A DNA stretch of 36,014 nt from NCBI GenBank assembly GCA_945873115.1, contig CAMCBT010000016.1, positions 1-36,014 of the forward strand. Direction: 5' to 3'. This DNA comes from an uncultured Mitsuokella sp. GTDB taxonomy: Bacteria; Bacillota; Negativicutes; Selenomonadales; Selenomonadaceae. Positions 2,924 through 34,333 of the stretch are shown here, in pieces. Within the stretch, counting starts at the first letter, position 1. Every line of letters starts with the position of its first letter. Under the pieces are notes generated by a model, which did no database searches, was not told the DNA's origin, and saw only the letters and a list, made by a program, of their open reading frames with translations. Both the position numbers and the translations under genes were made by a program.

Positions 2924-3955
2924 TTAAATATCCATGGGGACGATATTTTCTTCCTTCATGAAGACGGCGAGCTTCTGCACGCCCCGCATGACCTCCTGAT
3001 AGTTCTCCGGGGTCAGGGACTGGGGGCCGTCGGACAGTGCCTTCGCCGGGTTCGGATGGACCTCCATCATGAGGCCGTCGGCACCGGCGGCGATGGCGGC
3101 GAAGGCCATGGGCTTCACCATGCGCCACTTGCCCGTGCCGTGGCTGGGATCCACGATGATGGGCAGGTGGGAAAGATGCTTGATGGCGGCCACCGCCGAG
3201 AGGTCGAGGGTATTGCGGGTATAGGTCTCATAGGTGCGGATGCCCCGCTCGCAGAAGACCACGTTCGGGTTGCCGGCATTCATGATGTACTCGGCGGCGT
3301 TGAGCCACTCGTCGAGGGTCGCGGCGAGGCCCCGCTTCAGAAGGACGGGCTTTCCGCACTTGCCCACCTCCTTCAGGAGGCCGAAGTTCTGCATATTCCG
3401 GGCGCCCACCTGGAGCATATCCGCGTAGTGGGCCACCCGGTCGATGGCCTCCACCGTGGTGACCTCCGTGACGATCCGGAGCCCCGTGCGTTCCCGGGCC
3501 TCCGCCAGGTACTCCAGGCCCTTCTCCTCCAGGCCCTGGAAGGAATAGGGGCTCGTCCGGGGCTTGTAGGCGCCGCCCCGGAGGAACTGGGCACCGGCGG
3601 CCTTCACGATATCCGCCGCCTCGAAGAGCTGCTCCTTCGACTCCACGGCGCAGGGGCCTGCCATGACGACGGGAGTGCCACCGCCGATCTTTACGCCCGC
3701 CACGTCGATGACACTCGCCATCGGGTGGAACTCGCGGCTGGCGAGCTTGTAGCTCTTGGAGATGGCGACGCTCTGCTCCACGCCCGCCATGGCGTCGATG
3801 GGGACGGAGGCGAGGCGGGTCTTGTCGCCGATGACACCGACGATTTTCTGGCTCGCGCCCTCCATGACCTTCGCCTTGAGGCCTGCACCCTCCACGGCGG
3901 CGATGACCTCCTTGATGTTCTCATCCGTTGCGTCCGGATTCATGATGATGACCAT
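2924..3955 (-). CDS. aroF: 3-deoxy-7-phosphoheptulonate (DAHP) synthase, type I-beta with FL domain
   Basis: Catalyses the first step of the shikimate pathway, condensing phosphoenolpyruvate and erythrose 4-phosphate. From the chosen start the protein has 343 residues, matching the Thermotoga/Bacillus-type enzymes. An N-terminal ferredoxin-like (FL) regulatory domain (about 1-70, starting MVIIMNPDATDENI) is followed by the TIM barrel with GPCAVES (100-106), KPRTSPYSFQG and IVDPSHGTGK. The FL domain is known to mediate feedback inhibition by aromatic amino acids in this subfamily. The open frame extends 14 codons upstream into the end of pheA, but the ATG at 3955 has AGGAGC five bases upstream and gives the family N-terminus. 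It is the last gene of the exonuclease-pheA-aroF operon, 34 nt after the pheA stop. Confidence 0.95.
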   Translation of the reverse strand: MVIIMNPDATDENIKEVIAAVEGAGLKAKVMEGASQKIVGVIGDKTRLASVPIDAMAGVEQSVAISKSYKLASREFHPMASVIDVAGVKIGGGTPVVMAGPCAVESKEQLFEAADIVKAAGAQFLRGGAYKPRTSPYSFQGLEEKGLEYLAEARERTGLRIVTEVTTVEAIDRVAHYADMLQVGARNMQNFGLLKEVGKCGKPVLLKRGLAATLDEWLNAAEYIMNAGNPNVVFCERGIRTYETYTRNTLDLSAVAAIKHLSHLPIIVDPSHGTGKWRMVKPMAFAAIAAGADGLMMEVHPNPAKALSDGPQSLTPENYQEVMRGVQKLAVFMKEENIVPMDI

Positions 3956-11745: not shown

Positions 11746-11779
11746 GGGATGCCTTTCCCGTCCATCAAAAAAGGAAACC

Positions 11780-11814
11780 AAAAGCCCCGACACTACGCAG
11801 ATGTCGGGGCTTTT
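11780..11814. terminator. Bidirectional intrinsic terminator
   Basis: AAAAGCCCCGACA (11780-11792) and TGTCGGGGCTTTT (11802-11814) pair perfectly over 13 bp around a 9-nt loop, with T runs on both strands. It ends the diguanylate cyclase transcript and can also stop leftward read-through. Confidence 0.93.
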
Positions 11815-11816
11815 GG

Positions 11817-11890
11817 CTGTGTATTATATCTTAGGAGAGCTTCCCCTCCGGCCAGGAGGGAATTGAAAGCCTGGATATAATATAGCACAG
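11817..11890. other. Structured intergenic element of unknown function
   Basis: Long imperfect terminal inverted arms (11817-11835 and 11870-11890) share CTGTG, TATTATATC and AGG, differing by a 3-nt insertion and two substitutions. They enclose a GC-rich hairpin, TTCCCCTCC/GGAGGGAA (11841-11862) with a GGCCA loop and one bulged C. It lies between two convergent genes and just behind a terminator. Its terminal arms and size would suit a REP/MITE-like element or a small structured RNA; neither is shown. Confidence 0.55.
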
Positions 11891-11897
11891 TTGATAA

Positions 11898-11919
11898 TGA
11901 AATTCAATACTTTATTGAA
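11898..11919 (-). terminator. Weak hairpin terminator of the four-repeat small protein
   Basis: TTCAATA (11903-11909) and TATTGAA (11913-11919) form a 7-bp stem with a 3-nt loop, 12 nt past the stop codon on the minus strand, followed by TTTCATTAT. The stem is A/T rich, so strength is doubtful; the strong terminator at 11780-11814 backs it up. Confidence 0.5.
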
Positions 11920-11931
11920 AAATTTTCCCAT

Positions 11932-12249
11932 TTATTTTTTGAGGTTGCAATGAGGCATGTCACCGAGCCCCGTGTACTGGGTAGCTCCCGGTGTGGCTAC
12001 CCGCACCTCGCCGGGCTTTGCCATATCGGGATCCTCCTCGCAGACATACCCGCTCCAGCCGGGAGTGGAGACCCACTGGCAGGCCTGGCCCTTCGGCGTC
12101 TCCTCGCGGAGTGCCACGCCCGAGGCTCCCGGCGTCGCGACCCGCGTGGCATTGGAGGCCGCCGCCTCCTTTGGCGCGTCCTCACAGACATAGCCGGAAA
12201 AGCCCGGCGTCGATACCCATACGGCCTCTCGATTCGTCTTCTCGCTCAT
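11932..12249 (-). CDS. Small protein with four ~24-residue TPG repeats, unknown family
   Basis: I do not recognise this 105-residue protein. It is built from four units of about 24 residues whose TPG triplets lie at 14, 39, 62 and 86, in an alternating A-B-A-B pattern. A units read WVSTPG(F/W)SGYVCE (11-23 and 59-71); B units read RVATPGA (36-42 and 83-89). Cysteines are at 22, 57, 70 and 101. There is no signal peptide, no membrane helix, and acidic linkers (EDAP, EEDP) follow the A units. Expression signals are excellent: AGGAG six bases before ATG and a strong promoter of its own, so the gene is real. The Trp/Tyr-Gly-Cys repeats could form a small beta-repeat fold, bind metal, or be cores of a modified peptide, but no modification enzyme is nearby. 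The upstream neighbour is an MFS transporter. Confidence 0.8.
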   Translation of the reverse strand: MSEKTNREAVWVSTPGFSGYVCEDAPKEAAASNATRVATPGASGVALREETPKGQACQWVSTPGWSGYVCEEDPDMAKPGEVRVATPGATQYTGLGDMPHCNLKK

Positions 12250-12290
12250 GATATGCTCCTTTCGTCCAATCCCAGTTCTTTGATGGTTCT

Positions 12291-12319
12291 AGTATACCAC
12301 GAAAGGGAAATAATGTAAA
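12291..12319 (-). promoter_or_regulatory. Strong promoter of the four-repeat small protein
   Basis: On the minus strand TTTACA (12319-12314), a 17-nt spacer ending in TGG, and TATACT (12296-12291) form an extended -10 sigma70 promoter. The predicted start near 12284 gives a 35-nt leader carrying GAAAGGAG before the start codon. It lies just 25 nt past the MFS stop, so the small gene need not rely on MFS transcription. Confidence 0.8.
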
Positions 12320-12343
12320 GTCGTTATTTATTACGAATTTATT

Positions 12344-19343: not shown

Positions 19344-21479
19344 TCAATCCTCTATCAAAGCCCATTCTTGCCCCTTGCCCGCATCCAATTCTGCGATGGA
19401 TTCTGCAAGAACGGCCTGATTCTCCTTTCTCAAGAAAGAATCTGCTTCAATCGCGTAAGAAGACACCGCCTCATTGACCATATGATCCTGCCATTTCACC
19501 GTGACCGGATAACCGGACTTCACGCGACCATCCTGCCATGCATCTGCCTCAAGGGGCATACTGTAATATTTCTCGAAGGTTTTATAGAGTGTCCTGTAGC
19601 GCACCTTGTTCTCTACGATTTTCTGAAGGGTCTTCGTATCCATGGAGAGAATTTTCATGCCCGTTATCGTCTTGCCATCCTTTGTGTAGGGAATGATTTT
19701 CCGATAGCGGAAGTCTGACACAACATTCTTGTCCAGATAGGTGCTTATGAACAGGCTGTAGTCAAATGGGTTATCGGAACGAATGCGATAGTCTCCCAGA
19801 TGTCTTGATACCGGCTCCATCTCCATGCGTCGCTGGTTGCTCCCATCTGCCAACGTCGCCTCTATCAAAAGCGCATGCTTCGGATAATCAGCGCAAGAAT
19901 CATATTTATAGACGATATCCGCATCACCGCCTGCCGCATGAGTCTTTGGCAAAAGGTTTGCCTCCAAAGACAGGTTCATGAACTCCAAAATATTTCCCTG
20001 GCGCTCGCTTACTTTGTACCAAACGATTCCAAGAATATACTCGAATATAGTCGGTATCGTGGCCTCGTCTGTGACTAGCTCCTCAATGCGTGCATCTTCT
20101 CGCTTTTCAAAGCAGGCAAGCAGCTCGGAAAGCGTTGCATCCGAAAACTTCTTGTCAATGAGCTCATTGAAGCGCCTGATCCTCTCCGCCTCCACATAGC
20201 TTTGGGCCTGCTCTGCATTCTCGATGTCGATGCCAATATCCCGGCTAAGCTTTGCGTAGATATCCTCCGGACGCACCGCAAGCACAGGAGAGATTTCCGA
20301 AAGAGACGTATCTGCCATGAGCTTGTCCGAGGCGGTAAATGTGTCGCCCGTCAGTCCCTTCATGACCTCCTGAAAGAAATATTTCGGGGCAAGGTCCAGT
20401 GTGAGCGTCCCATCCTCGAATACAATCGCATCCGAAAGGCTGAGATAGCGGCGGTTCAAATCAAAGTAGTCCTTTAGCGTCAGCTTTGCCTTGAAAACAT
20501 GCAGATAACGGAAGAACACCTCCTGTAGGCTGGCTTCATTCTCACAGGATAGAAAGGGAGAATCTGCCCGAAGCACTTCCCGTCCGCCCTTGCGGACGCT
20601 TTGTTTGCTCGTCGTCTGGAAAAGCAAATCGCGCCATAGGATGCCTGCCTGCTTGAGTCCCTTTGTCACTTCGAGAAGCTCTTCACAGCTATCTGCCTGC
20701 TCCAGAAAGACTCGCTTGATGCATCGATAGAGTGGGAAATAGGCTTTGTCATACTTCCCACTCTTCCGATTCATGCCGATTTGGCCGATGAGCTCCTCTG
20801 TGACCTTCGGTGCCTCCGAAAAGAGCTTTGACGCCTGCTGGTAGTTTTCCATGCGCATGAGATGATTATAGATAACCTCATCAACCGTCTTCTCGCCCTT
20901 GCGATAGGACCGAATGGATTCGATGAGCTCCTCTGCGCTCTTCTCATCACACATCATCTGCACGAAATAGCAAAACTCATCATAGGTGAGCTTCTCCAGT
21001 TCCAGGAGGCATCGCACCGTAACGAGGAAAGGGCGCACCCGGGCCGCATCCACTGCACAGCTCGTCTTCAGCAGCTGCCGCAAATAAAGGTAGCTGTCCT
21101 TTTTAATCTGAAAAATGTTGGAATCCTGATAGGTTCCTTCTCCCACAATCTCCAGAAGAGCGCGACCTGCTTCCGTTATCCGCCGGTCCTTCGTCAACAG
21201 TCCGATTTCCACCAGGCCAGAGGTCTTTTCCCTTGCGTCCTTATCCTTCCGTGCCGCAGTCCCTGTAAGGAAGCCTGCTCGCTTCATAAGGTCATAGTAA
21301 CGCTCCTGCAAGGAAGAATCCCATACCCACTCCGAAGTTTCCGTGATCTCCTCATAAAGCGACTGCAGCAGACGCAGCTGCTGCTCTATCATCATATTTA
21401 GTTTTTTTACGCGGAAGCTTGTCGTGCCGATGACGAAGCAGAAGCTTTTATAAGAGATTCTTTGTGGAGCCGTTGCCAT
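19344..21479 (-). CDS. AlwI-family type IIS restriction endonuclease
   Basis: A 711-residue protein resembling the AlwI/BstNBI group of type IIS nucleases, which bind short asymmetric sites and cut a few bases outside. The N-terminus has IGTTSFRVKKLN; the C-terminal part has LPKTHAAGGDADIVYKY (510-526), HALLIEATLADGSNQ (535-549) and RRMEMEPVSRHLG (550-562), the block I associate with this family. D519/D521 and E540 are candidate catalytic acids of a PD-(D/E)xK-like site; this is inference. It starts 11 nt after the methyltransferase stop with AAGGAG seven bases before ATG. Base composition is A+T-richer than the flanking genes, suggesting acquisition. The exact site cannot be read from sequence; GGATC (AlwI) and GAGTC (PleI/MlyI) are family examples. 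Confidence 0.85.
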   Translation of the reverse strand: MATAPQRISYKSFCFVIGTTSFRVKKLNMMIEQQLRLLQSLYEEITETSEWVWDSSLQERYYDLMKRAGFLTGTAARKDKDAREKTSGLVEIGLLTKDRRITEAGRALLEIVGEGTYQDSNIFQIKKDSYLYLRQLLKTSCAVDAARVRPFLVTVRCLLELEKLTYDEFCYFVQMMCDEKSAEELIESIRSYRKGEKTVDEVIYNHLMRMENYQQASKLFSEAPKVTEELIGQIGMNRKSGKYDKAYFPLYRCIKRVFLEQADSCEELLEVTKGLKQAGILWRDLLFQTTSKQSVRKGGREVLRADSPFLSCENEASLQEVFFRYLHVFKAKLTLKDYFDLNRRYLSLSDAIVFEDGTLTLDLAPKYFFQEVMKGLTGDTFTASDKLMADTSLSEISPVLAVRPEDIYAKLSRDIGIDIENAEQAQSYVEAERIRRFNELIDKKFSDATLSELLACFEKREDARIEELVTDEATIPTIFEYILGIVWYKVSERQGNILEFMNLSLEANLLPKTHAAGGDADIVYKYDSCADYPKHALLIEATLADGSNQRRMEMEPVSRHLGDYRIRSDNPFDYSLFISTYLDKNVVSDFRYRKIIPYTKDGKTITGMKILSMDTKTLQKIVENKVRYRTLYKTFEKYYSMPLEADAWQDGRVKSGYPVTVKWQDHMVNEAVSSYAIEADSFLRKENQAVLAESIAELDAGKGQEWALIED

Positions 21480-21490
21480 GCCGTTTCTCC

Positions 21491-23614
21491 TTATGGCGTA
21501 TAATTCGTAAGCAATACCTCGACCGTGATGCTATCGCGTTTTTTTCGCTGATAGTTGCTATTGGCATAGGTCTTCTCGAGGACTGTACAGATATGGCCGC
21601 GTGCTTGCACCCAATCGGAGAGAAGGCTATTCGTCTTGCCCTTGCTCTCCAGTACGTTTGAAAGTGCAAAATAGTGTCCCTGTTCATTCACCCGATCAAG
21701 GAATTTCAAAAGGGCCTTCTCCTCCGTCTCTGACCAGCCACCATTTTCATTGTAGGTCGCTTCTGTAATCAGATACGGTGGATCCGCATAAAAGAAGGTC
21801 GGAGCTGGAAACTCCTCCAGCGAAATTGCGCGAAAGTCCTTGTTCTCCAGCTGGATATCCTTTCGTTTCAAAGCCTCTGAGAAACTCCAAAGCTTCGCCT
21901 TCATCCTATCATTGAAATCCCGTTTACCCACTGGAAGATTGTATGCACCATTCCGATTGAAGCGAATCTGATTATTGAAAGAAAATACAATCAGAACATA
22001 CAATAGCAACGGGTCAGGATGCCCCTCCTTGACTGTCTGGTTGTACTGATCCCGAAGGTGCAGAAAGCCCTCGCGATTCCATTTTGCAAGGCCCCCTGCA
22101 CTGTTGCAGCCATAGCGCGTATATCCGTCCCGCGATGTATTCGAGAGCCCATGAATCTCTATGGTGTGTTCCACAGCCTTTACGAGCTCTTCCGTCGGTG
22201 TTTTCTGGATATATTTCATCAAGCGTATCAGCTGGGTGTTTTTATCATTGAGATAGATTCTCTTTGCATCGCTGTTCACACCGACATTGCCACCACCAGC
22301 AAACATATCATAAAAGACTTCAGTTTTCCGAAAAAGTGGCTGGATCTGCGGAAGAAGCTTGTATTTCCCGCCCGTGTAATTAAAGGGGCTCGCAATGTTT
22401 TTTCCCGATTCAAAATCGCTGACCTCACATAGAAAGAGCCGCTCCTTATTTCCCCGGATATCCGATTTTCCCGTGGAAAAACTCTTGTAGGACTCCTCAA
22501 AAACCGTGACTTTTCCCTTCGCCTGCAGAATGCGCATGATATCCTCATCGGATATCTTTGCATTGGAGCGGTCGTTCCCTTTTTCCTGCATATTGTTGTA
22601 GGAAAGAAGGACATAACGAGCCCTTGCTGACTGAATGAGCTGCTCAAAGGCCTGGGCCGCATCCTTGCGGCAATAGGCGCTCTTAAGCTTGCCCCTGTCC
22701 ATTTTCCGAGCAACTCCATGAACCGGAGGTTTTTCCCATCGAGCCACATTTTCCAGGACATGGTATGCGTCGCTGTACTGCCGGGAATTATAGGGTGGGT
22801 CAAGGTAGAGCAAGTCACATTCGATGCGACTGATTAGCGCATTAGCATCCTCATTAAAACATAGATTTCCCGGATTGCATGTTTTCTCTGGCAGGATAAC
22901 GGGAACAACAAGGTGCTTCTCATAGGCTGCATTGCGCCGATAGGCATCGTAGTGTCCAACCGTGTTGGCTATCCTGTCCATCCCATAGAGCAAAGCAGTG
23001 ACGAGGATAGCATACTCCTTGAAATTGAGTCCCCCTTTGCGATATTGCTTTTCAATATCCTCGCGAATCCAGCCAATTTTGCTGCAATCTGTTGCAGAAA
23101 AAAACGTATTTGCGAAATTCTTCCGCATATAGTTCTCTTCATCTGTCTGCACTTGATTGTAGTCATAGATGGTGCATAGAATTTTTGTGCAGGAATACTC
23201 CTCAGGTAAAAACCATGCGATGTGCGCAAGATAGTTGCTGTAGAGCAGGTCATTTGTAATAAGCTGCTTGTCTCGGAAAACATTCGCGACAGCTCCCGTC
23301 CCACTGAAGACATCTGCTACAACAGATACCCCCCGGCAATGGACTTCTACTGTCCGACGAATGAAGTCCGAAAGAGCATACTTATTGCCAAGATAGCGTC
23401 GATTGTTGATATGTACCTCGCGCAGCCCAAGCTGGTCTGCCAGTTTTCTGACCTCTTCTACGCGCATTGCAACGGCCTGATGCATAAACGGCAATGTCTT
23501 TCTTGTATGTTTTGTCGGGAGCAGCCCTGTTTTCGGCTTCCATTCCAGTTGATTCAAAAGAATTGACTGCCCCTCCGCTGTTTCTCCCACAGCAAGAGCA
23601 TGTCTGTCATTCAT
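21491..23614 (-). CDS. Two-domain DNA N6-adenine methyltransferase (D12 class, fused)
   Basis: Protects host DNA by methylating adenine. The 707 residues from ATG 23614 contain two D12/Dam-class domains in tandem. The first has RYLGNKYALSDF, FSGTG (103-107) and LLYLDPPYNS with DPPY at 272-275. The second has NYTGGKYKLLPQI (from about 412), FAGGG (438-442) and FFYADPPYL with DPPY at 611-614. Two complete catalytic domains in one chain, as in M.FokI, suit an asymmetric site in which each strand needs its own enzyme. The frame could start at a TTG at 23650, but that lies upstream of the predicted transcription start, and the ATG has GGAG nine bases before it. It is the first gene of the operon. 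Confidence 0.92.
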   Translation of the reverse strand: MNDRHALAVGETAEGQSILLNQLEWKPKTGLLPTKHTRKTLPFMHQAVAMRVEEVRKLADQLGLREVHINNRRYLGNKYALSDFIRRTVEVHCRGVSVVADVFSGTGAVANVFRDKQLITNDLLYSNYLAHIAWFLPEEYSCTKILCTIYDYNQVQTDEENYMRKNFANTFFSATDCSKIGWIREDIEKQYRKGGLNFKEYAILVTALLYGMDRIANTVGHYDAYRRNAAYEKHLVVPVILPEKTCNPGNLCFNEDANALISRIECDLLYLDPPYNSRQYSDAYHVLENVARWEKPPVHGVARKMDRGKLKSAYCRKDAAQAFEQLIQSARARYVLLSYNNMQEKGNDRSNAKISDEDIMRILQAKGKVTVFEESYKSFSTGKSDIRGNKERLFLCEVSDFESGKNIASPFNYTGGKYKLLPQIQPLFRKTEVFYDMFAGGGNVGVNSDAKRIYLNDKNTQLIRLMKYIQKTPTEELVKAVEHTIEIHGLSNTSRDGYTRYGCNSAGGLAKWNREGFLHLRDQYNQTVKEGHPDPLLLYVLIVFSFNNQIRFNRNGAYNLPVGKRDFNDRMKAKLWSFSEALKRKDIQLENKDFRAISLEEFPAPTFFYADPPYLITEATYNENGGWSETEEKALLKFLDRVNEQGHYFALSNVLESKGKTNSLLSDWVQARGHICTVLEKTYANSNYQRKKRDSITVEVLLTNYTP

Positions 23615-23652
23615 GGTCTGTTTCTCCGTTCTTGTAGAAGTTCTTTTCAAGC

Positions 23653-25953: not shown

Positions 25954-27357
25954 TTATGCCTGGCAGACCTTATGGGGATTCAAGATATTCTTCGGGTCGA
26001 AGGCGGCCTTGATGCGGCGCATGAGGGCCAAGGCCTCCGGATCCAGGGACTCCTTCAGGTAGGGGCGCTTTGCTAGGCCGATGCCGTGCTCGCCGGATAC
26101 CTGGCCCTCCAGCTCATGGGCCTTCTTGTACATGAGCTCCATGGCCTTTTCCAGCATTTCCTTCCACTTGGCATCATCCATATCATCCCGGAGGATGTAG
26201 ACATGGAGGTTGCCATCGCCCGCATGGCCGAAGCTCTTGATGCGGATCTTCAGCTCCTTCTGGAGGCCGTGGACGTACTCCACGAATTCATTGACATGGC
26301 TGCGAGGAACCACCACGTCCACCTCGTCCATCTCCGTGGTGGAGCCCTTGATGGCCTCTAGGAAGGCGCCGCGGGACTTCCAGATGGGGGTGCTGCGCTC
26401 ATCCGTGTCGGCGATGAAGAGATCGATGGCCCCGTGCTCCAGGCAGATTTTCGCTACGCCGTCGTAGGCGTTCTCGATTTCCTGGACGGAAGCGCCGTCG
26501 AACTTCAAGAGGAGATACGCATCGGCACTCTTATCCGGGAAGGGACGGCCGAGATACTCCTCCGAGTCTACGATGACCTCCCGCTCCATGAATTCGATGG
26601 CCGTGGGGATGGCCTTCGACTGGATGATTTTCGGCACGGTGCCGATGGCCTGGGCGAGCGTCGGGAAGGGGATGAGGAGGCTCACGTTCTTCTGGGGGAG
26701 CGGCAGCAGCCGGAGCACGGCCTTCGTGACGAAGGCCAGCGTGCCTTCGGAGCCCACGATGAGATCCCGGAGATTGTAGCCGGAGCTGTTCTTCACGACC
26801 TTGCCGCCCACCTCAAGGACCTTGCCATCGGGCAGGACCAGGGTCAGGCCTCTCACAAAGTCCCGGGTGACACCGTACTTCACGGCCCGCATGCCGCCGG
26901 CGTTCGTGGAGATATTGCCGCCAATCGTCGCCGACTTCTCGCCCGGATCCGGCGGATAGAAGTAGCCCCGCTCCTCCACATAGGCGGCAATTTCCATCAG
27001 GAGCACGCCCGGCTCCACCGTGAGGGTCAGGTTGTCCTCATCCAGCTCCAGAATATTGTTCATGAGGGTCATATCGATCATGAGGCCGTGCTCCACAGCG
27101 ACGGCGGCCCCCACGAGGCCCGTGCCGGCACCCCGGGGCGTCACGACGATGTTGTTGTCGTAGGCGTACTTCATGAGCTTTGAGACTTCCTCGGTGCTCT
27201 TGACCCGCACCACCACATCCGGCCAGGCTTTCTCGGAGCTCAGCTCGTCGTGGCTGTATTCCTCATTGATAGTATCGCCCACGAGGACGCGCTCTTCGTC
27301 GGTAATCTCCCGGAAGACCTTGATGTCCTCGGCCGTTATCTTCTTGTAATCAGGCAT
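25954..27357 (-). CDS. lctD: FAD-linked lactate dehydrogenase (LctD-type, GlcD family)
   Basis: Oxidises lactate to pyruvate with FAD and passes electrons to the adjacent Etf. The 467 residues have a PCMH-type FAD-binding domain (about 40-220) with [36 protein letters not shown], and [16 protein letters not shown], and the C-terminal FAD-oxidase domain with [13 protein letters not shown] and [15 protein letters not shown]. Gene order etfB-etfA-lctD equals lctBCD of Acetobacterium woodii, whose complex couples endergonic NAD+ reduction by lactate to ferredoxin oxidation. Glycolate or another 2-hydroxyacid is the alternative substrate. It overlaps etfA by 8 nt; GGAGG lies inside the etfA end. 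Confidence 0.9.
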
Positions 27358-28546
27358 GGATGGATCCTCCTTTTTTGATGCGCTCTATGAGGGCCGGCAC
27401 GATTTCGTAGAGATCACCGACGACGGCGTAGTTTGCTACCTTGAAGATAGATGCTTTCGGGTCGGAGTTGATGGCGAAGATGAGATCCGAGTGATCCATG
27501 CCCGCCACGAACTGGATGGCTCCGGAGACGCCGCAGGTGATGAGGAGCTTCGGGCGAACCGTGCGGCCGGAGAGACCGATCTGGTGCTTGGCATCCATCC
27601 AGCCCCCCTCCACCAGGGGACGGGTGCAGGCGATTTCACCGCCCAGGGCATCCGCCAGATCCCGGAGCAGGTTGAGGTCTTCCTTCTTTTTGACGCCGCG
27701 GCCTGCCACCACGAGGACATCGGCATTCTCGATGGACTTCTCCTTTGCCTTCGGCGTGACGGAGAGCACCTCGATGCTCGTCTTCAGATCCTCTGCCGGA
27801 ACCTCCAGCATCTCGATTTCGCCGGAGGCAGAGTCGCTGCGCTCCGGGGCATCCATAATCTTATAGCGCACCGTGGCCATCTGGGGACGGGTGCGGGTGG
27901 TGAGAATCTCCGCCATGATGTTGCCGCCGAAGGCCGGGCGAATCTGGACAAGATCCGTATTCTCCCGCATGTCGAGGATGGTGCAGTCGGCGGTGAGGCC
28001 CGTCTTGAAGCGGGCGGCGACGCGGGGCGCCAGCTGGCGGCCCACCGGGGTCGCCCCCACCAGGATAGCCGTGGGCTTTACCTTCCGCACGAAGCGGGCG
28101 AAGACATTCGTATAGGCCTCGATGTTGAAGGACTCGAGGGCCTTATTTTCCGCCACGAAGACCTTGTCCACCCCATAGTGGCGAAGCTCCTCCGCCTTGT
28201 CCTTGATGCCGTCGCCGATGAAGAGGGCATAGACGGGATGGTTGATTTTCGCCGCCAGCTCCTTCGCCTTGCCGATTAGCTCCAGGGTCACCGGATGGAT
28301 GCGGCCCCCCACGTGGTCCACATAGACGGTGATGCCGCGCCACTCGTCCTTGTTGACCTTCGGGCCCTCATCCTCCTCCACGAACTCCATGGCTCCGCCA
28401 CCCTTCCGGACGCAGAGCTTGCAGAGCTTGCAGGCGGCATTGATTTCCAGCTTGCCGTCCTTTTCCTCCATGGCGCCGAAGGGGCAGATTTTCATAAATT
28501 CTTGGATATCCTTGATCTTGTCCTGATGGACAACGAGCTTTCCCAT
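27350..28546 (-). CDS. etfA: Electron transfer flavoprotein alpha subunit with N-terminal iron-sulfur module
   Basis: The FAD-carrying Etf subunit of the lactate dehydrogenase complex, 398 residues, longer than the ~320-residue classical form. The extra N-terminus holds four cysteines, C21 (ICPFGA) and C39-C42-C45 (CKLCKLC), enough for one [4Fe-4S] cluster as in LctC of A. woodii. The alpha domain follows, and the C-terminal FAD-binding part has [41 protein letters not shown] and [23 protein letters not shown] precedes the ATG; the gap to etfB is 21 nt. The iron-sulfur module supports a confurcating role with ferredoxin. Confidence 0.94.
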
Positions 28547-28567
28547 AATCTCGACTCTCCCTTTCCG

Positions 28568-29359
28568 TCAGCCGATGAACTTCTTCTCATGCAGGAGGGC
28601 CTGCATCTTTGTGGCGAGCTCCTCGCCGCTTCCCGTCCAGGTCTCGTGCTTCTTGTCCATCGGCGGCGGGAAGATCTTTTCCACCTGGGTCGGGGAGCCG
28701 GAGAGGCCGTAGTGCTTCGGGTTCTTGTCCTCCATGTCGATGAGGATGTAGGAGGCGATGGGCTGATCCTTCGTCTTTTGCTTCCTTAAATAGCTCGGGA
28801 GGCGGGGCTCATTGATGTCCTTCTCCACCGTCAGGAGGCAGGGGAAGGCGACCTTGACCCGCTCGATGTCCTCGGGCATGTCCATGTCAACGATGATAGC
28901 ACCGTCCTTGACCTCCTCGATCTTCTTCACGTTGCAGACGCAGGGGATGCCGAGATCCTCGGAGATCTCCGGCCCCACCTGGGCCGTGTCGCCGTCCGTC
29001 GTCTGGAGGCCGCAGAGGATGAGGTCCGGCATGCCGAACTTCCGGATGCCCTGGGAAAGGGTGTAGCTGGTGGCAAGCACGTCCGCGCCGCCGAACTGGC
29101 GATCCGTGATGAGAGCTCCCTCATCGGCGCCCATGGCAAAGGCCTCGTAGAGGACGGCCTTCGCCTGGGGCGGCCCCATGGTGATGACATTGACCTTGCC
29201 GCCATACTGCTCCCGAAGGCGGAAGGCTGCCTCAAGGGCAAATAGGTCATACGGATTCATCTTGGAATCCGCGCCATCGCGCTTCAGGACGCCCGTGACC
29301 GGATCCACCTGAACCTTGTTGGATCCAGGCACCTGCTTGATACAAACGAGAATATCCAT
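28568..29359 (-). CDS. etfB: Electron transfer flavoprotein beta subunit (bifurcating type)
   Basis: The 263-residue partner subunit: MDILVCIKQVPGSNKV at the start, NPYDLFALEAAFRL, and CGLQTTDGDTAQVGPE (about 116-131), the motif that in bifurcating Etfs holds the second FAD instead of AMP. The C-terminal arm (RKQKTKDQPIASYILIDM) wraps the alpha subunit. It is the first gene of the operon, with GGGGGAG close to ATG, transcribed leftward from the shared control region. Confidence 0.94.
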   Translation of the reverse strand: MDILVCIKQVPGSNKVQVDPVTGVLKRDGADSKMNPYDLFALEAAFRLREQYGGKVNVITMGPPQAKAVLYEAFAMGADEGALITDRQFGGADVLATSYTLSQGIRKFGMPDLILCGLQTTDGDTAQVGPEISEDLGIPCVCNVKKIEEVKDGAIIVDMDMPEDIERVKVAFPCLLTVEKDINEPRLPSYLRKQKTKDQPIASYILIDMEDKNPKHYGLSGSPTQVEKIFPPPMDKKHETWTGSGEELATKMQALLHEKKFIG

Positions 29360-29403
29360 TGTGCTCCCCCTTGTTTCAATTCATCATACTTATCATGGCT
29401 TAT

Positions 29404-29432
29404 ATTCTAGCGCATTTTTTCGCGTTTGTATA
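29404..29432 (-). promoter_or_regulatory. Probable promoter of etfB-etfA-lctD
   Basis: On the minus strand TATACA (29432-29427), a 17-nt spacer and TAGAAT (29409-29404). The weak -35 overlaps the palindrome TGTATACA, the usual place for a repressor of FadR type. The predicted leader is about 38 nt. Confidence 0.55.
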
Positions 29433-29674
29433 CATTGTGAAGAAAATAACTTATCGTATCATTGTGATAATTTATTTTCCCTCTCATCTTGTTTGACATT
29501 TCTGCGCATTTCCACGACCAGCCTTGGGAAAACTTACTGTTTTATACGGATTTAATGCGTACTTTGCAGGTATTATCCCCCAAACACCCGCTTTATCCCC
29601 CATTTCCATCATTCTCTGTCCTTTTCGAATTGTCACGCAACAAAAGAAAAAACGACATTTTTCACGATAATCTA

Positions 29675-29703
29675 TTGACTGGATTGCAATAAATATATAT
29701 AAT
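29675..29703 (+). promoter_or_regulatory. Promoter of lutC-lutBA-lctP
   Basis: TTGACT (29675-29680), a 17-nt spacer and a perfect TATAAT (29698-29703). The start near 29710 gives a leader of about 85 nt containing the dyad TCGGAT/ATCCGA, a candidate operator or hairpin. Confidence 0.85.
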
Positions 29704-29794
29704 GGTCTTGTATTTATTTATCGGATGAATCTGTGTATCCGAGCAAAAATGCCAACAATGTGAAGAGATACAGCTTCATTTAGGAGGGCTTTCA

Positions 29795-30394
29795 ATGAAA
29801 AAGGTTTATGAGAACTGGCCGGAACTCTTCTCAAAGGAGACCATCGATCCGAAATGGTGGGACAAGTTCGAGGCGAATGCCAAGGCCGCCTCGGCGGAAA
29901 TCCACCGGGTCAAGGACTACGATGCGGCGAAGAAGGAAATCGACACCATCCTGAAGGAGTTCGACCCGAAGAGCATCATCGCCGTGGGCGGCGAGGAAAA
30001 CCCGAAGCTGGCGGAAATCTACGCAGGCCTCAACACCGCCGCTCACCCGGTCTACACGGATAAATATGAAATCGCCGAGCATGCGCCGACGGCGGACGTG
30101 GGCTTTTCCTGCGCAGAGTTCGGCGTGGGCGAGACGGGAAGCGTCTGCGTCGACACCTACTCCTACGAGGCCCGAGTGGTGGGCATGCTGCCCCCCGTCC
30201 ACATCGTCTTCCTAAATTCCAACTATATTACGGAAAATGTTTCCACCGCTTTCAAGATTATCGCGAAGGGCTTCAAGAAGGGCCACATGGGCTTCATCAC
30301 GGGCCCAAGCCGCACGGCGGACATCGAGCGGGTGCTGACCCTCGGCGTCCACGGCCCGAGCCGCTTCTTTATCATCGCAATCGACGAAGCCTAA
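29795..30394 (+). CDS. lutC: LutC-type LUD-domain protein of lactate oxidation
   Basis: A 199-residue LUD (lactate utilisation) domain protein of the LutC/YkgG group, which acts with LutA and LutB to oxidise L-lactate to pyruvate. Recognisable stretches are IIAVGGEENPKLAEIYAG, ADVGFSCAEFGVGETGSV (the LUD signature around 100-117) and FITGPSRTADIERVLTLGVHGP near the C-terminus, where GPS-TADIE is conserved. There is no signal peptide. GGAGG lies seven bases before ATG. It is the first gene of the operon, 16 nt before the lutB-lutA fusion. Confidence 0.92.
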   Translation: MKKVYENWPELFSKETIDPKWWDKFEANAKAASAEIHRVKDYDAAKKEIDTILKEFDPKSIIAVGGEENPKLAEIYAGLNTAAHPVYTDKYEIAEHAPTADVGFSCAEFGVGETGSVCVDTYSYEARVVGMLPPVHIVFLNSNYITENVSTAFKIIAKGFKKGHMGFITGPSRTADIERVLTLGVHGPSRFFIIAIDEA

Positions 30395-30410
30395 GCAGGA
30401 GGAAACCATC

Positions 30411-32579
30411 ATGGCTGCAAGAAACCTACATAAAGAAATAGATGAAAAGCTCCACGACAACGTCCTGCGCACGGCGCTGGGAAAGTTCGCCGAGCAGTAC
30501 CCGGGAGCCCGCCTCAAGTCCTATGAGGGGGAGGACATCGAGGCCCTCCGCACAGATCTCGCCCAGATGAAGCATTATTCCGTCCAGCACCTGACGGAGT
30601 TGGCGGATCAGTTCGAGAGCGAGGCAAAGAAGCGGGGTTGCGAGGTCTTCCGGGCAAAGGATGGGGACGCCGTCAAGGAGTACCTTCTGAAGATTTGCCG
30701 GGAAAACAACGTCAAGCGCATCGCCAAGTCCAAGTCCATGGCCAGCGAGGAAATCCGCCTCAATGAGTACTTCACGGACAAGGGCATCCACATCCGGGAG
30801 ACGGATCTGGGCGAATGGATGCTTTCCGTCGCCGGGCAGCACCCCTCCCACATGGTCATGCCCGCAATCCACCTGAATAAGGAGCAGTGCGCCGGATTTT
30901 TCTCCAAGGAACTCAACAAGGATATCCCCAGCGATATCCCCTTCATGGTGCAGACGGCTCGCCAGGTTCTCCGGGAGGAATTCCTGAATGCGGACATCGG
31001 CATGACGGGCGCCAACTTCGGCATCGCGGAGAACGGTGCCATCGGCCTGGTGACGAACGAGGGTAACGCCCGCATCGTCACCACGCTCCCCCGCATCCAG
31101 GTCATCCTCATCGGCTACGAGAAGCTCATCCCGAAGATCGAGGATGCGGCAAAGATCCTCCGGCTCCTGCCTAGGAACGGCACCTGCCAGAAGATGACCA
31201 GCTACATGACCATGGTGGACGGAGCGAATCCGGTCATGGTGAAGGAAGACGGCAAGTGGGTGGAGAAGGACCGGAAGGTCTACGTCATCCTCCTGGACAA
31301 CGGCCGCCTGGAGGCCGCAAAGGATCCGAAATTCCAGGAGGCCTTCCACTGCGTCCGCTGCGCCTCCTGCCTGAACGTCTGCCCCATCTGGACGCTGGTG
31401 GGCGGCAACGTCTACGGCCACATCTACTCCGGCGGCATCGGCGCCATCCTGACGGGCCTTCTCGGCAACGGCCTGAAGGACTTCTCCCAGTTCAGCGATC
31501 TTTGCATCGGCTGCCGCAAGTGCGTGGAAATCTGCCCGGGCAAGATTCCCATTCCGGACCTCATCGACGAGCTCCGGAACCGCAACGTCAAGGCCAACGG
31601 CATGCCGCTCCCGGAGAAGGTGGCCTTCCAGAGCATCCTCTCAAACCGGAAGCTCTTCCACACGCTCCTGCGCATCGGCTCCAAGGCCCAGGCGCCCGTC
31701 AAGAGCGGCAAGTTCATCCGCCATCTGCCCCTCTTCTTCGCGGGGCTCACGAAGGACAGGAGCCTGCCGGCCATCGCCGCCGTGCCCTTCCGTGACCGGG
31801 CCAAGAAGCTTCTTGAGAAGAATCCGGCGAACCCGAAGCTGAAGGTCGCCTTCTTCTCCGGCTGCAACATGGACTTCGTCTTCCCGGATACGGCGGAGAA
31901 CGTGGTGAAGGTCCTGCAGGATGCCGGCGTCGCCGTCGCCTTCCCGGAGGCCCAGAGCTGCTGCGGCAAGCCCGCCATGGGCATGGGCGACCGGGATACA
32001 GGCCGAAAGCTCGCCAAGCAGAACATCGAGGCCATCCTGGCGGAAAACCCGGATGCCATCGTCTCCGCCTGCCCCACCTGCACCGAGACCCTCGAAAAGA
32101 CGTATGTACAGCTCTTCGAGGATGACCCCTCCATGCTGGAGAAGGTGAAGAAGTTCAGCTCGAAGGTGCGGGAGTTCACGGATCTCGTGGCGGAACTCTA
32201 CGAGAAGGAAGGGCGCCTCAAGAAGGCCCCGGGCGGCCAGAAGGTCACCTACCACGACTCCTGCCATATCAGCCGCGGCCTCGGCATCCGCAAGCAGCCC
32301 AGAGACCTTCTCGAGTCCACGCAGGGCGTAGACTTCGTGGAGATGAAGAACTCCGACAAGTGCTGCGGCATGGCCGGCGCCTTCGGCGTCAAGTACGCGG
32401 AAATCTCCATGCCCCTCCTAAAGGAGAAGGTAGCAAATATCAAGGACACGGGGGCAGAAATCTGCGCCGTGGCGTGCCCCGCCTGCATGATGCAGATTGC
32501 CGGCGGCCTCGACAAGCAGCTGCCGAACGTCCACGTAAAGCATATTGCGGATATCCTTGCGGAAGCCATTGAAAAGTAA
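30411..32579 (+). CDS. LutB-LutA fusion: LUD, two [4Fe-4S] clusters and two CCG domains
   Basis: A 722-residue fusion of the two iron-sulfur subunits of Lut lactate oxidase. Residues 1-300 are the LutB-type LUD domain (KSKSMASEEIRLNEY, GMTGANFGIAENGAIGLVT). Then come two ferredoxin-type clusters: C314-C317-C320-C324P and C365-C368-C371-C375P. Residues 475-722 are LutA-like with two CCG modules: C485, CCG 517-519, C554/C557, and C618, CCG 651-653, C689/C692, as in heterodisulfide-reductase-type cysteine-rich domains. In Bacillus subtilis lutA and lutB are separate genes, so this chain joins both; all cysteines are kept. AGGAGG lies eight bases before ATG. Substrate by family is L-lactate. Confidence 0.92.
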   Translation: MAARNLHKEIDEKLHDNVLRTALGKFAEQYPGARLKSYEGEDIEALRTDLAQMKHYSVQHLTELADQFESEAKKRGCEVFRAKDGDAVKEYLLKICRENNVKRIAKSKSMASEEIRLNEYFTDKGIHIRETDLGEWMLSVAGQHPSHMVMPAIHLNKEQCAGFFSKELNKDIPSDIPFMVQTARQVLREEFLNADIGMTGANFGIAENGAIGLVTNEGNARIVTTLPRIQVILIGYEKLIPKIEDAAKILRLLPRNGTCQKMTSYMTMVDGANPVMVKEDGKWVEKDRKVYVILLDNGRLEAAKDPKFQEAFHCVRCASCLNVCPIWTLVGGNVYGHIYSGGIGAILTGLLGNGLKDFSQFSDLCIGCRKCVEICPGKIPIPDLIDELRNRNVKANGMPLPEKVAFQSILSNRKLFHTLLRIGSKAQAPVKSGKFIRHLPLFFAGLTKDRSLPAIAAVPFRDRAKKLLEKNPANPKLKVAFFSGCNMDFVFPDTAENVVKVLQDAGVAVAFPEAQSCCGKPAMGMGDRDTGRKLAKQNIEAILAENPDAIVSACPTCTETLEKTYVQLFEDDPSMLEKVKKFSSKVREFTDLVAELYEKEGRLKKAPGGQKVTYHDSCHISRGLGIRKQPRDLLESTQGVDFVEMKNSDKCCGMAGAFGVKYAEISMPLLKEKVANIKDTGAEICAVACPACMMQIAGGLDKQLPNVHVKHIADILAEAIEK

Positions 32580-32594
32580 TTGAGGACCTAGGGA

Positions 32595-32628
32595 TTGAAA
32601 GGCGTCCCGTCTGCGGGATGCCTTTCAA
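32595..32628 (+). other. Stable intercistronic hairpin without U tract
   Basis: TTGAAAGGCGTCCCG (32595-32609) and CGGGATGCCTTTCAA (32614-32628) form a 15-bp stem with one G-U and a 4-nt loop. It is followed by AAAA, not T, on the plus strand, so it is not a classical terminator. Such hairpins commonly protect the 3' end of an upstream cistron or mark a processing site, here between the Lut fusion and the permease. Confidence 0.65.
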
Positions 32629-32680
32629 AAAAGCCTTCGGAAAAGAACGAGATTTCTGACAAGAATAGGAGTGGTACCGT

Positions 32681-34333
32681 ATGCATGCTTTGATTGCTGC
32701 TATCCCCATCATCCTGACCATCATCCTGACGGTCGCTTTCAACCAGTCCGCCAAGCGGGTCCTGCCGATTGCATGGTTTGTGATTGTCCTCATCGGCATC
32801 CTCGTCTGGCAGATGAACCTACTCGATATTGCCGCCTACTCCATCGCAGGCTTCCTGGGCTCTATCGATACCCTGCTCATCATCTTCGGCGCTATCCTCC
32901 TCATGAACACCCTGGATCGCTCCGGCGCCATGGAACGCATCCAGGGCATGTTCAATGGCATCACCGAGGATGCCCGCATCCAGCTCATCATCGTGGGCTT
33001 TGCCTTCTCCGCCTTCATCGAGGGCGCCGCAGGCTTCGGCACCCCGGCCGCCATTGCGGCGCCTCTGCTCATCGGTCTGGGCTTCCCCCCGATGGCAGCT
33101 GCCGTCTCCTGCCTTATCCTGAACTCGACCCCGGTCCCCTTCGGTGCCGCCGGCACTCCGACGAACGCCGCCACGGATATCGTTCGGGAGATGCTCACCG
33201 CCAGCGGTGTCGCGGATGTCGAGGCCTGGAAACTCGGCCTCTCCTTCTTCTCCGCCCTCGGCATGGCGGTGGGCGCTCTCTTCATCATCTTCCTGGTGGT
33301 GGGCATCGTCACTCGCATGTTCGGCAAGGAGAAGAAGTTCTCCGACGCCTTGCCGGTGCTCCCCTTCTGCATCTTCACGGCCGTTGTCTTTGATATCTTC
33401 TACCTGCTTCTCGCAAGGTTCATCGGCTCGGAGATCACATCGCTGACTGCTGCCGCTATCACGGTCTTCGTCCTCATCGGCGCAGCAAAGGCGGGCTTCC
33501 TCATGCCGAAGGACATCTGGCGGTTCAACCACGTGGCGGTTCCCCAGGAGAAGGTCTTCGAGGAGAAGCCGAAGAAGTCGGACATGTCCCTCTTCCGGGC
33601 CTGGATCCCCTACCTCTTCGTCTCCGTCTGGCTCATCGCCACCCGCATTCCTCAGCTGGGCCTCAAGGACTCCGTCAAGAGCGTCGTCCTCTCCATCACG
33701 GACATCCTGGGGGTTCAGGGCGCCAGCTGGAACTTTGCCGTCCTGAACAACCCGGGCGTGGCTCCCTTCATCCTCATCGTCCTTCTGTCCATCCCCCTCT
33801 ACGGCCTCACCGGCACCCAGGTGAAGGAAATCTTCACGAAATCCGCCAAGCAGGTCTACGGTGCCACCATCGCCCTGATCTTCGGCTTCGGCCTCGTCTA
33901 CATGTACCGCTACTCCAGCATCAACGGCGCAGGCCTTGACTCCATGCTGCTGACCATGGCAAAGGGCGTGGCCGACTTCGCCGGTGCCAACTACTTCTAC
34001 GTGGCCACCTTCATCGGCAGCGTCGGTGCCTTCATGTTCGGTTCCAACACGGTGTCGAACATCATGTTCTCCCCGTTGCAGTTCCAGACGGCCCAGCTCC
34101 TCAATATGTCCCCGACGGTCATCATCGCTCTCCAGAACCAGGGCGGCGCCATCGGCAACATGATCTGCATCAACAACATCGTCGCCGTCGCCGCAACGAC
34201 GGGCATCATCTCCATCAAGGGCATCGAGGGCAAGCTTATCAGGACAAACATCGTCCCCTGGGCCCTCTACTACATCACCTGCATCATCGTCGCCCTCGTG
34301 GCAATAAACGCAGGCATCGCCCCCTCAAATTGA
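32681..34333 (+). CDS. lctP: L-lactate permease (LctP/LldP family)
   Basis: A proton-coupled lactate importer of 550 residues with about 12-14 membrane helices. Family stretches seen are [49 protein letters not shown] in the first half and [38 protein letters not shown] near the C-terminus. A cytoplasmic loop around 290-315 is charged. AGGAG lies nine bases before ATG. It ends the rightward operon and is followed by a strong terminator, so lactate uptake and oxidation are made together. Glycolate is a known second substrate of the family. Confidence 0.95.

Follow-up and report, generated by a model that had tools for sequence, protein, structure and literature searches.

The window, that is, the whole 36,014-nucleotide stretch of DNA from an uncultured Mitsuokella sp. 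analyzed here, carries on its reverse strand a small gene for a protein built on repeated TPG motifs and, directly behind it, the gene of a putative small RNA (sRNA). Mitsuokella, Selenomonas, and their relatives are Negativicutes found in the gut, the rumen, and the mouth. The features of the protein-coding gene are the following:

11932..12249, (-) strand: gene for a small TPG-repeat protein of 105 aa (11 kDa; intact mass 11,076 Da) with pI 5.1; homologues found
12291..12319, (-) strand: promoter TTTACA-17-TATACT with extended -10 TG, also in the sister species (L003)
12256..12260, (-) strand: ribosome binding site AGGAG, also in the sister species (L003)
12181..12219, (-) strand: core WVSTPGFSGYVCE of unit A1, residues 11-23
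12124..12144, (-) strand: core RVATPGA of unit B1, residues 36-42
12037..12075, (-) strand: core WVSTPGWSGYVCE of unit A2, residues 59-71
11983..12003, (-) strand: core RVATPGA of unit B2, residues 83-89

The position, length, and sequence of this open reading frame (ORF) are exactly those given by an earlier, sequence-only reading, and the A-B-A-B order of its four units is likewise borne out, with TPG motifs starting 25, 23, and 24 residues apart. Units containing WVSTPG[FW]SGYVCE (A) alternate with units that have in common only RVATPGA (B), and all four follow the pattern [VI]-x-[ST]-P-G-[aromatic or Ala]-x-G. Aligned with each other, the two halves of the ORF score 107 (BLOSUM62), and none of 20,000 shuffles scored above 63. 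The promoter with its upstream TG (12319-12291) and the AGGAG at 12260-12256, located 6 nt before the ATG, are present as described; the sister species conserves both hexamers and the ribosome binding site, and these signals suggest that the product may be abundant. Beyond the sister species, a search with the upstream region of the TPG gene found no convincing shared promoter. Just upstream of the -35 hexamer, window positions 12321-12336 (-) hold an imperfect palindrome, TCGTAATAAATAACGA, possibly an operator.

The sister species, whose record is labeled Mitsuokella (L003/G001), served as the comparison partner for assessing selection. Its copy is 91% identical, likewise follows the same MFS gene, and keeps the -35, -10, ribosome binding site, start, and stop of the TPG gene. 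Between the two copies, dN is 0.039 and dS 0.39-0.48, which gives a dN/dS of about 0.1. The 31 codon differences are unevenly distributed: the 38 repeat-core positions contain 15 synonymous and no amino-acid-changing differences, and the remainder of the gene contains 7 and 9, respectively (Fisher p 0.0008). Because all differences in core codons are synonymous, the proposed selection on the repeat residues is supported within Mitsuokella; the idea that Trp and Cys are kept in every unit is not, as Trp is confined to the A units and Cys occurs in the A units plus single residues at 57 and 101. That the ORF is spurious is hardly credible: its small size, and nothing else, speaks for this, against a dN/dS of about 0.1, a conserved start, ribosome binding site, promoter, and stop, and distant homologues. 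The outcomes named beforehand as counting against the earlier reading (unconserved repeats, frameshifts, a known family) were looked for, and none was found. The ORF is almost certainly a genuine, expressed, lineage-restricted gene.

Four of the 189 Selenomonadaceae genomes carry TPG-repeat genes, five in all and of two subtypes. Two are the Mitsuokella copies; genome G202 has both a 98-aa homologue (51%) and a 93-aa relative, and G201 has another 93-aa relative. G002, the third genome of the window's genus, has no such gene, and nothing else credible was found among 380 Negativicutes, IMG/VR, phages, and plasmids. One extra match below 0.001 (G245) was rejected as antisense to GlyA, and weak family-wide protein matches (E 0.01-1) were rejected as other frames, antisense, or unrelated ORFs. 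In agreement with the sequence-only reading, Pfam, NCBIfam, PHROGs, PADLOC, and PDB yielded no significant match (best chance matches at E 0.07 or worse), and the family has nothing significant in common with known protein families. The 51% homologue and the two 93-aa relatives keep TPG-aromatic-x-G units, the latter with four turn units spaced 19-20 residues apart, whereas unit number, spacing, Cys content, and neighbors vary.

The protein is acidic and, judged from its sequence, has no signal peptide and no membrane or hydrophobic segment. Our overall reading, to which we give a reasonable but less than even chance, is that of a real lineage-restricted gene with its own transcription unit, coding for a soluble, cytosolic, multivalent binder. 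For the protein itself we tentatively propose a role as a cytosolic multivalent beta-turn binder, which is possible rather than probable. Each TPG turn, together with the Val and aromatic residues beside it, would form a small hairpin patch; the patches would contact the same partner surface, and several weak contacts would sum. The gene would be an independent transcription unit, and the sRNA gene behind it would be a separate gene, a neighbor by chance in Mitsuokella. Repeated short binding motifs fit better than one fixed globular fold, because the relatives keep the units and the architecture varies. The loss of the TPGASG stretch from the second unit of the G202 homologue counts against the binder. 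AlphaFold2 returned a pLDDT of 37 and no usable fold from an alignment of two near-identical rows, and therefore provides no positive evidence for the hairpin; in this very-low-confidence model strands flank the turn at PG in each A unit, which is not evidence of a fold.

Four conserved Cys residues of the A subtype also count against a pure turn-motif binder, because such a binder needs none. They could instead bind metal or form disulfides, with the TPG repeats as a scaffold, and the 51% homologue has all four (C22, C57, C70, and C101). These Cys are isolated, however, with no CxxC pair or Cys/His cluster, and the two 93-aa relatives retain only the C-terminal one. In addition, the TPG promoter has no close match to the sRNA operator described below or to a Fur box, the best differing at 7/16 and 5/14 positions, and a thiol or metal protein is an unlikely candidate.

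The genes next to the TPG genes differ from locus to locus: an MFS gene in Mitsuokella, NUDIX/Tgt (identified by eye) at the G202 homologue, and a ShlB-type transporter at the 93-aa relatives. They provide no consistent functional clue. The units are small, repeated, aromatic, and Cys-containing, as might be expected of a ribosomally made, multi-core modified-peptide precursor exported by the adjacent MFS protein, one of the roles suggested earlier. Against this role, no maturation or peptidase gene was present at the TPG loci read (considering adjacency only), the neighbors are not kept between genera, and the MFS gene is common in other genera that have no TPG gene. Moreover, NCBIfam gave no match, and conservation lies in the units along the entire sequence, not in a leader, so that we regard this suggestion as quite improbable and do not retain it.

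Surface association after export, also suggested earlier, finds some encouragement in the 93-aa relatives, which in two genomes lie downstream of a gene for a ShlB-type two-partner secretion transporter. Yet the protein lacks a signal peptide and a hydrophobic segment, no ShlB-type transporter gene lies near the window copy, and the transporter is set apart from the 93-aa relative by a cobalamin riboswitch, hairpins that resemble terminators, and a separate promoter. An exported or surface-associated small repeat protein is consequently improbable. The transporter gene is followed by the riboswitch, which lies about 0.4-0.55 kb upstream of the 93-aa gene, at 3204-3389 (+) in L033 and 4930-4744 (-) in L034. 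Between riboswitch and gene, both loci share a further conserved non-coding stretch with a terminator-like hairpin end; the hairpins and the promoter were recognized by eye on the alignment. Cobalamin control of the 93-aa subtype is possible.

The 140 bases after the TPG stop codon are about as conserved as the gene itself in the alignment of the two Mitsuokella loci, and BLASTN with these bases matched 116 of the 189 Selenomonadaceae genomes, representing 20 of 30 genera. This region contains an sRNA gene that begins 60 bases downstream of the TPG ORF:

11892..11907, (-) strand: Fur-box-like operator TTGAATTTCATTATCA, overlapping the -35 of the sRNA promoter
11879..11907, (-) strand: sRNA promoter TTGAAT-17-TATATT, extended -10
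11774..11872, (-) strand: sRNA gene of an unnamed Selenomonadaceae sRNA family, covariance model 82.9 bits
11819..11840, (-) strand: conserved core GCTCTCCTAAGATATAATACAC with an unpaired anti-Shine-Dalgarno seed
11776..11818, (-) strand: intrinsic terminator of the sRNA, covarying stem

The same genome has a second copy (G000:C19:9654-9769), and 40 further loci share a constant plan: the operator, 17 nt promoter spacing, AGGCTTTCGTT, an optional insert, AAGCTCTCCTAARATATAATACACAGC, and a terminator whose loop is often ACTGCTCAT. The optional hairpin insert between AGGCTTTCGTT and AAGCTCTCCTAARATATAATACACAGC ranges from 0 to about 160 nt. One copy (L129, G187:C28) has about 160 bases inserted in its apical loop, and copies in related genomes have no insert there. 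For 28 copies, RNAalifold gave -23.1 kcal/mol with double changes in 14 of 20 pairs, and the covariation score was 0.572, against 0.155 for shuffled and at most 0.137 for slid controls. All double-sided covariation, that is, the 14 pairs with double changes, falls in the terminator; covariation is uninformative on the 5' hairpin (GGCUUU/AAAGCU) because the latter is nearly invariant.

A covariance model detected the sRNA in 136 of 380 Negativicutes: about 132 of the 189 Selenomonadaceae, and four outside the family with weak E-values. The highest copy number is seven, in G177. Neither the window nor 13 sRNA loci matched Rfam at the gathering score, and the best sub-threshold match was terminator-like (29.6 bits versus a cut-off of 55). 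The sRNA is intergenic, with its own promoter and terminator, and its flanking genes and their orientations vary, which identifies it as an independent gene rather than a leader. A cis-acting leader was rejected on these variable flanks and on the lack of a same-strand gene closely following it in the window. The sRNA family is widespread and apparently undescribed. No other element of the locus is as informative as the sRNA, which is a stronger result than the TPG protein.

Direct adjacency, kept in two Mitsuokella species, raises the alternative that the TPG protein is a partner of the sRNA, perhaps an RNA chaperone comparable to the Fbp proteins that serve FsrA in Bacillus. Their distributions speak against such a partnership, as the protein occurs in only 4 genomes, and in G201 and G202 the RNA copies were found on contigs other than those of the protein genes. 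In addition, the protein is acidic, and no close match to a Fur box lies in its promoter. This alternative is very improbable.

Several observations suggest a link between the sRNA and iron. Over 42 sRNA promoters, the operator consensus is TATTGAtwwTCATTmTCA, and its near-invariant positions reach well past the -35 hexamer. A search for TTGAWWWTSATTMTCA that tolerated one mismatch gave two sites in the 2.2 Mb genome, both of them sRNA promoters, and 0 for the reversed control. In two sister genomes, the further operator sites include ones that precede genes for FecCD permeases (L146, L148; Pfam E below 1e-88) and one that precedes an ExbB/TolQ-like gene (L150); two more, one of them close to an ABC-type ATP-binding gene, lack an evident connection with iron. 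The window's genome encodes two Fur-family proteins (G000:C1:62841 and C69:9178), and it looks as if Fur turns the sRNA on when iron is scarce.

The sRNA is predicted to expose an unpaired UCUCCU able to cover Shine-Dalgarno sequences. Sites of the form TAGGAGAG-ATG were found for IlvD, a 4Fe-4S CCG protein (conserved in two species), and Fe-ADH, and also for PckA and non-iron genes. Duplex energies do not cleanly separate the seed-matched genes, and aroF, which has no seed match, scores equally well. Pairing with the start region of the TPG gene itself was rejected as weak (-10.3 kcal/mol) and no better than that of many genes.

As far as its sequence allows us to judge, the sRNA resembles RyhB, FsrA, and IsrR in design. 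FsrA of Bacillus and IsrR of Staphylococcus are Fur-repressed iron-sparing sRNAs of Firmicutes (PMC9410917, PMC12871923), and FsrA covers Shine-Dalgarno sequences with a C-rich motif (PMC9410917). With these two, the sRNA shares a Fur box at the promoter (here Fur-box-like, by sequence), a terminator, and a single-stranded C-rich or anti-Shine-Dalgarno stretch; unlike them, it is multi-copy within a genome, has a 5' hairpin with a variable insert and a different core sequence, and resides in diderm Negativicutes. The prrF and ryhB genes are duplicated in some species (PMC9410917). Duplication is a feature in common with RyhB and PrrF, as would be trans-acting, iron-controlled function, which we infer here; a difference is that the sRNA matches no Rfam family. 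In the part of the literature covered, no description of such an RNA in Negativicutes was found.

We therefore consider it probable that the locus reveals a new Fur-controlled, multi-copy, iron-sparing sRNA family of most Selenomonadaceae, the first such in diderm Firmicutes, next to a TPG protein that is a young, independent orphan. If this is confirmed, Negativicutes would possess an iron-sparing sRNA with an evolutionary origin separate from that of RyhB, PrrF, FsrA, and IsrR. As genomes carry up to seven copies and a covariance model is ready for use, the sRNA is testable in existing RNA-seq data. The TPG protein, in turn, illustrates cleanly, and with support from selection, how a very young gene family can be built by repeating a short motif.

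Two further gene groups were observed elsewhere in the window. At 19344-23650 (-), an AlwI-type restriction endonuclease gene lies beside a large D12-class adenine methyltransferase gene. At 25954-34333, genes recognized by eye as a GlcD-type oxidase, EtfA, EtfB, LutC/LutB-like proteins, and a lactate permease suggest a lactate oxidation cluster.
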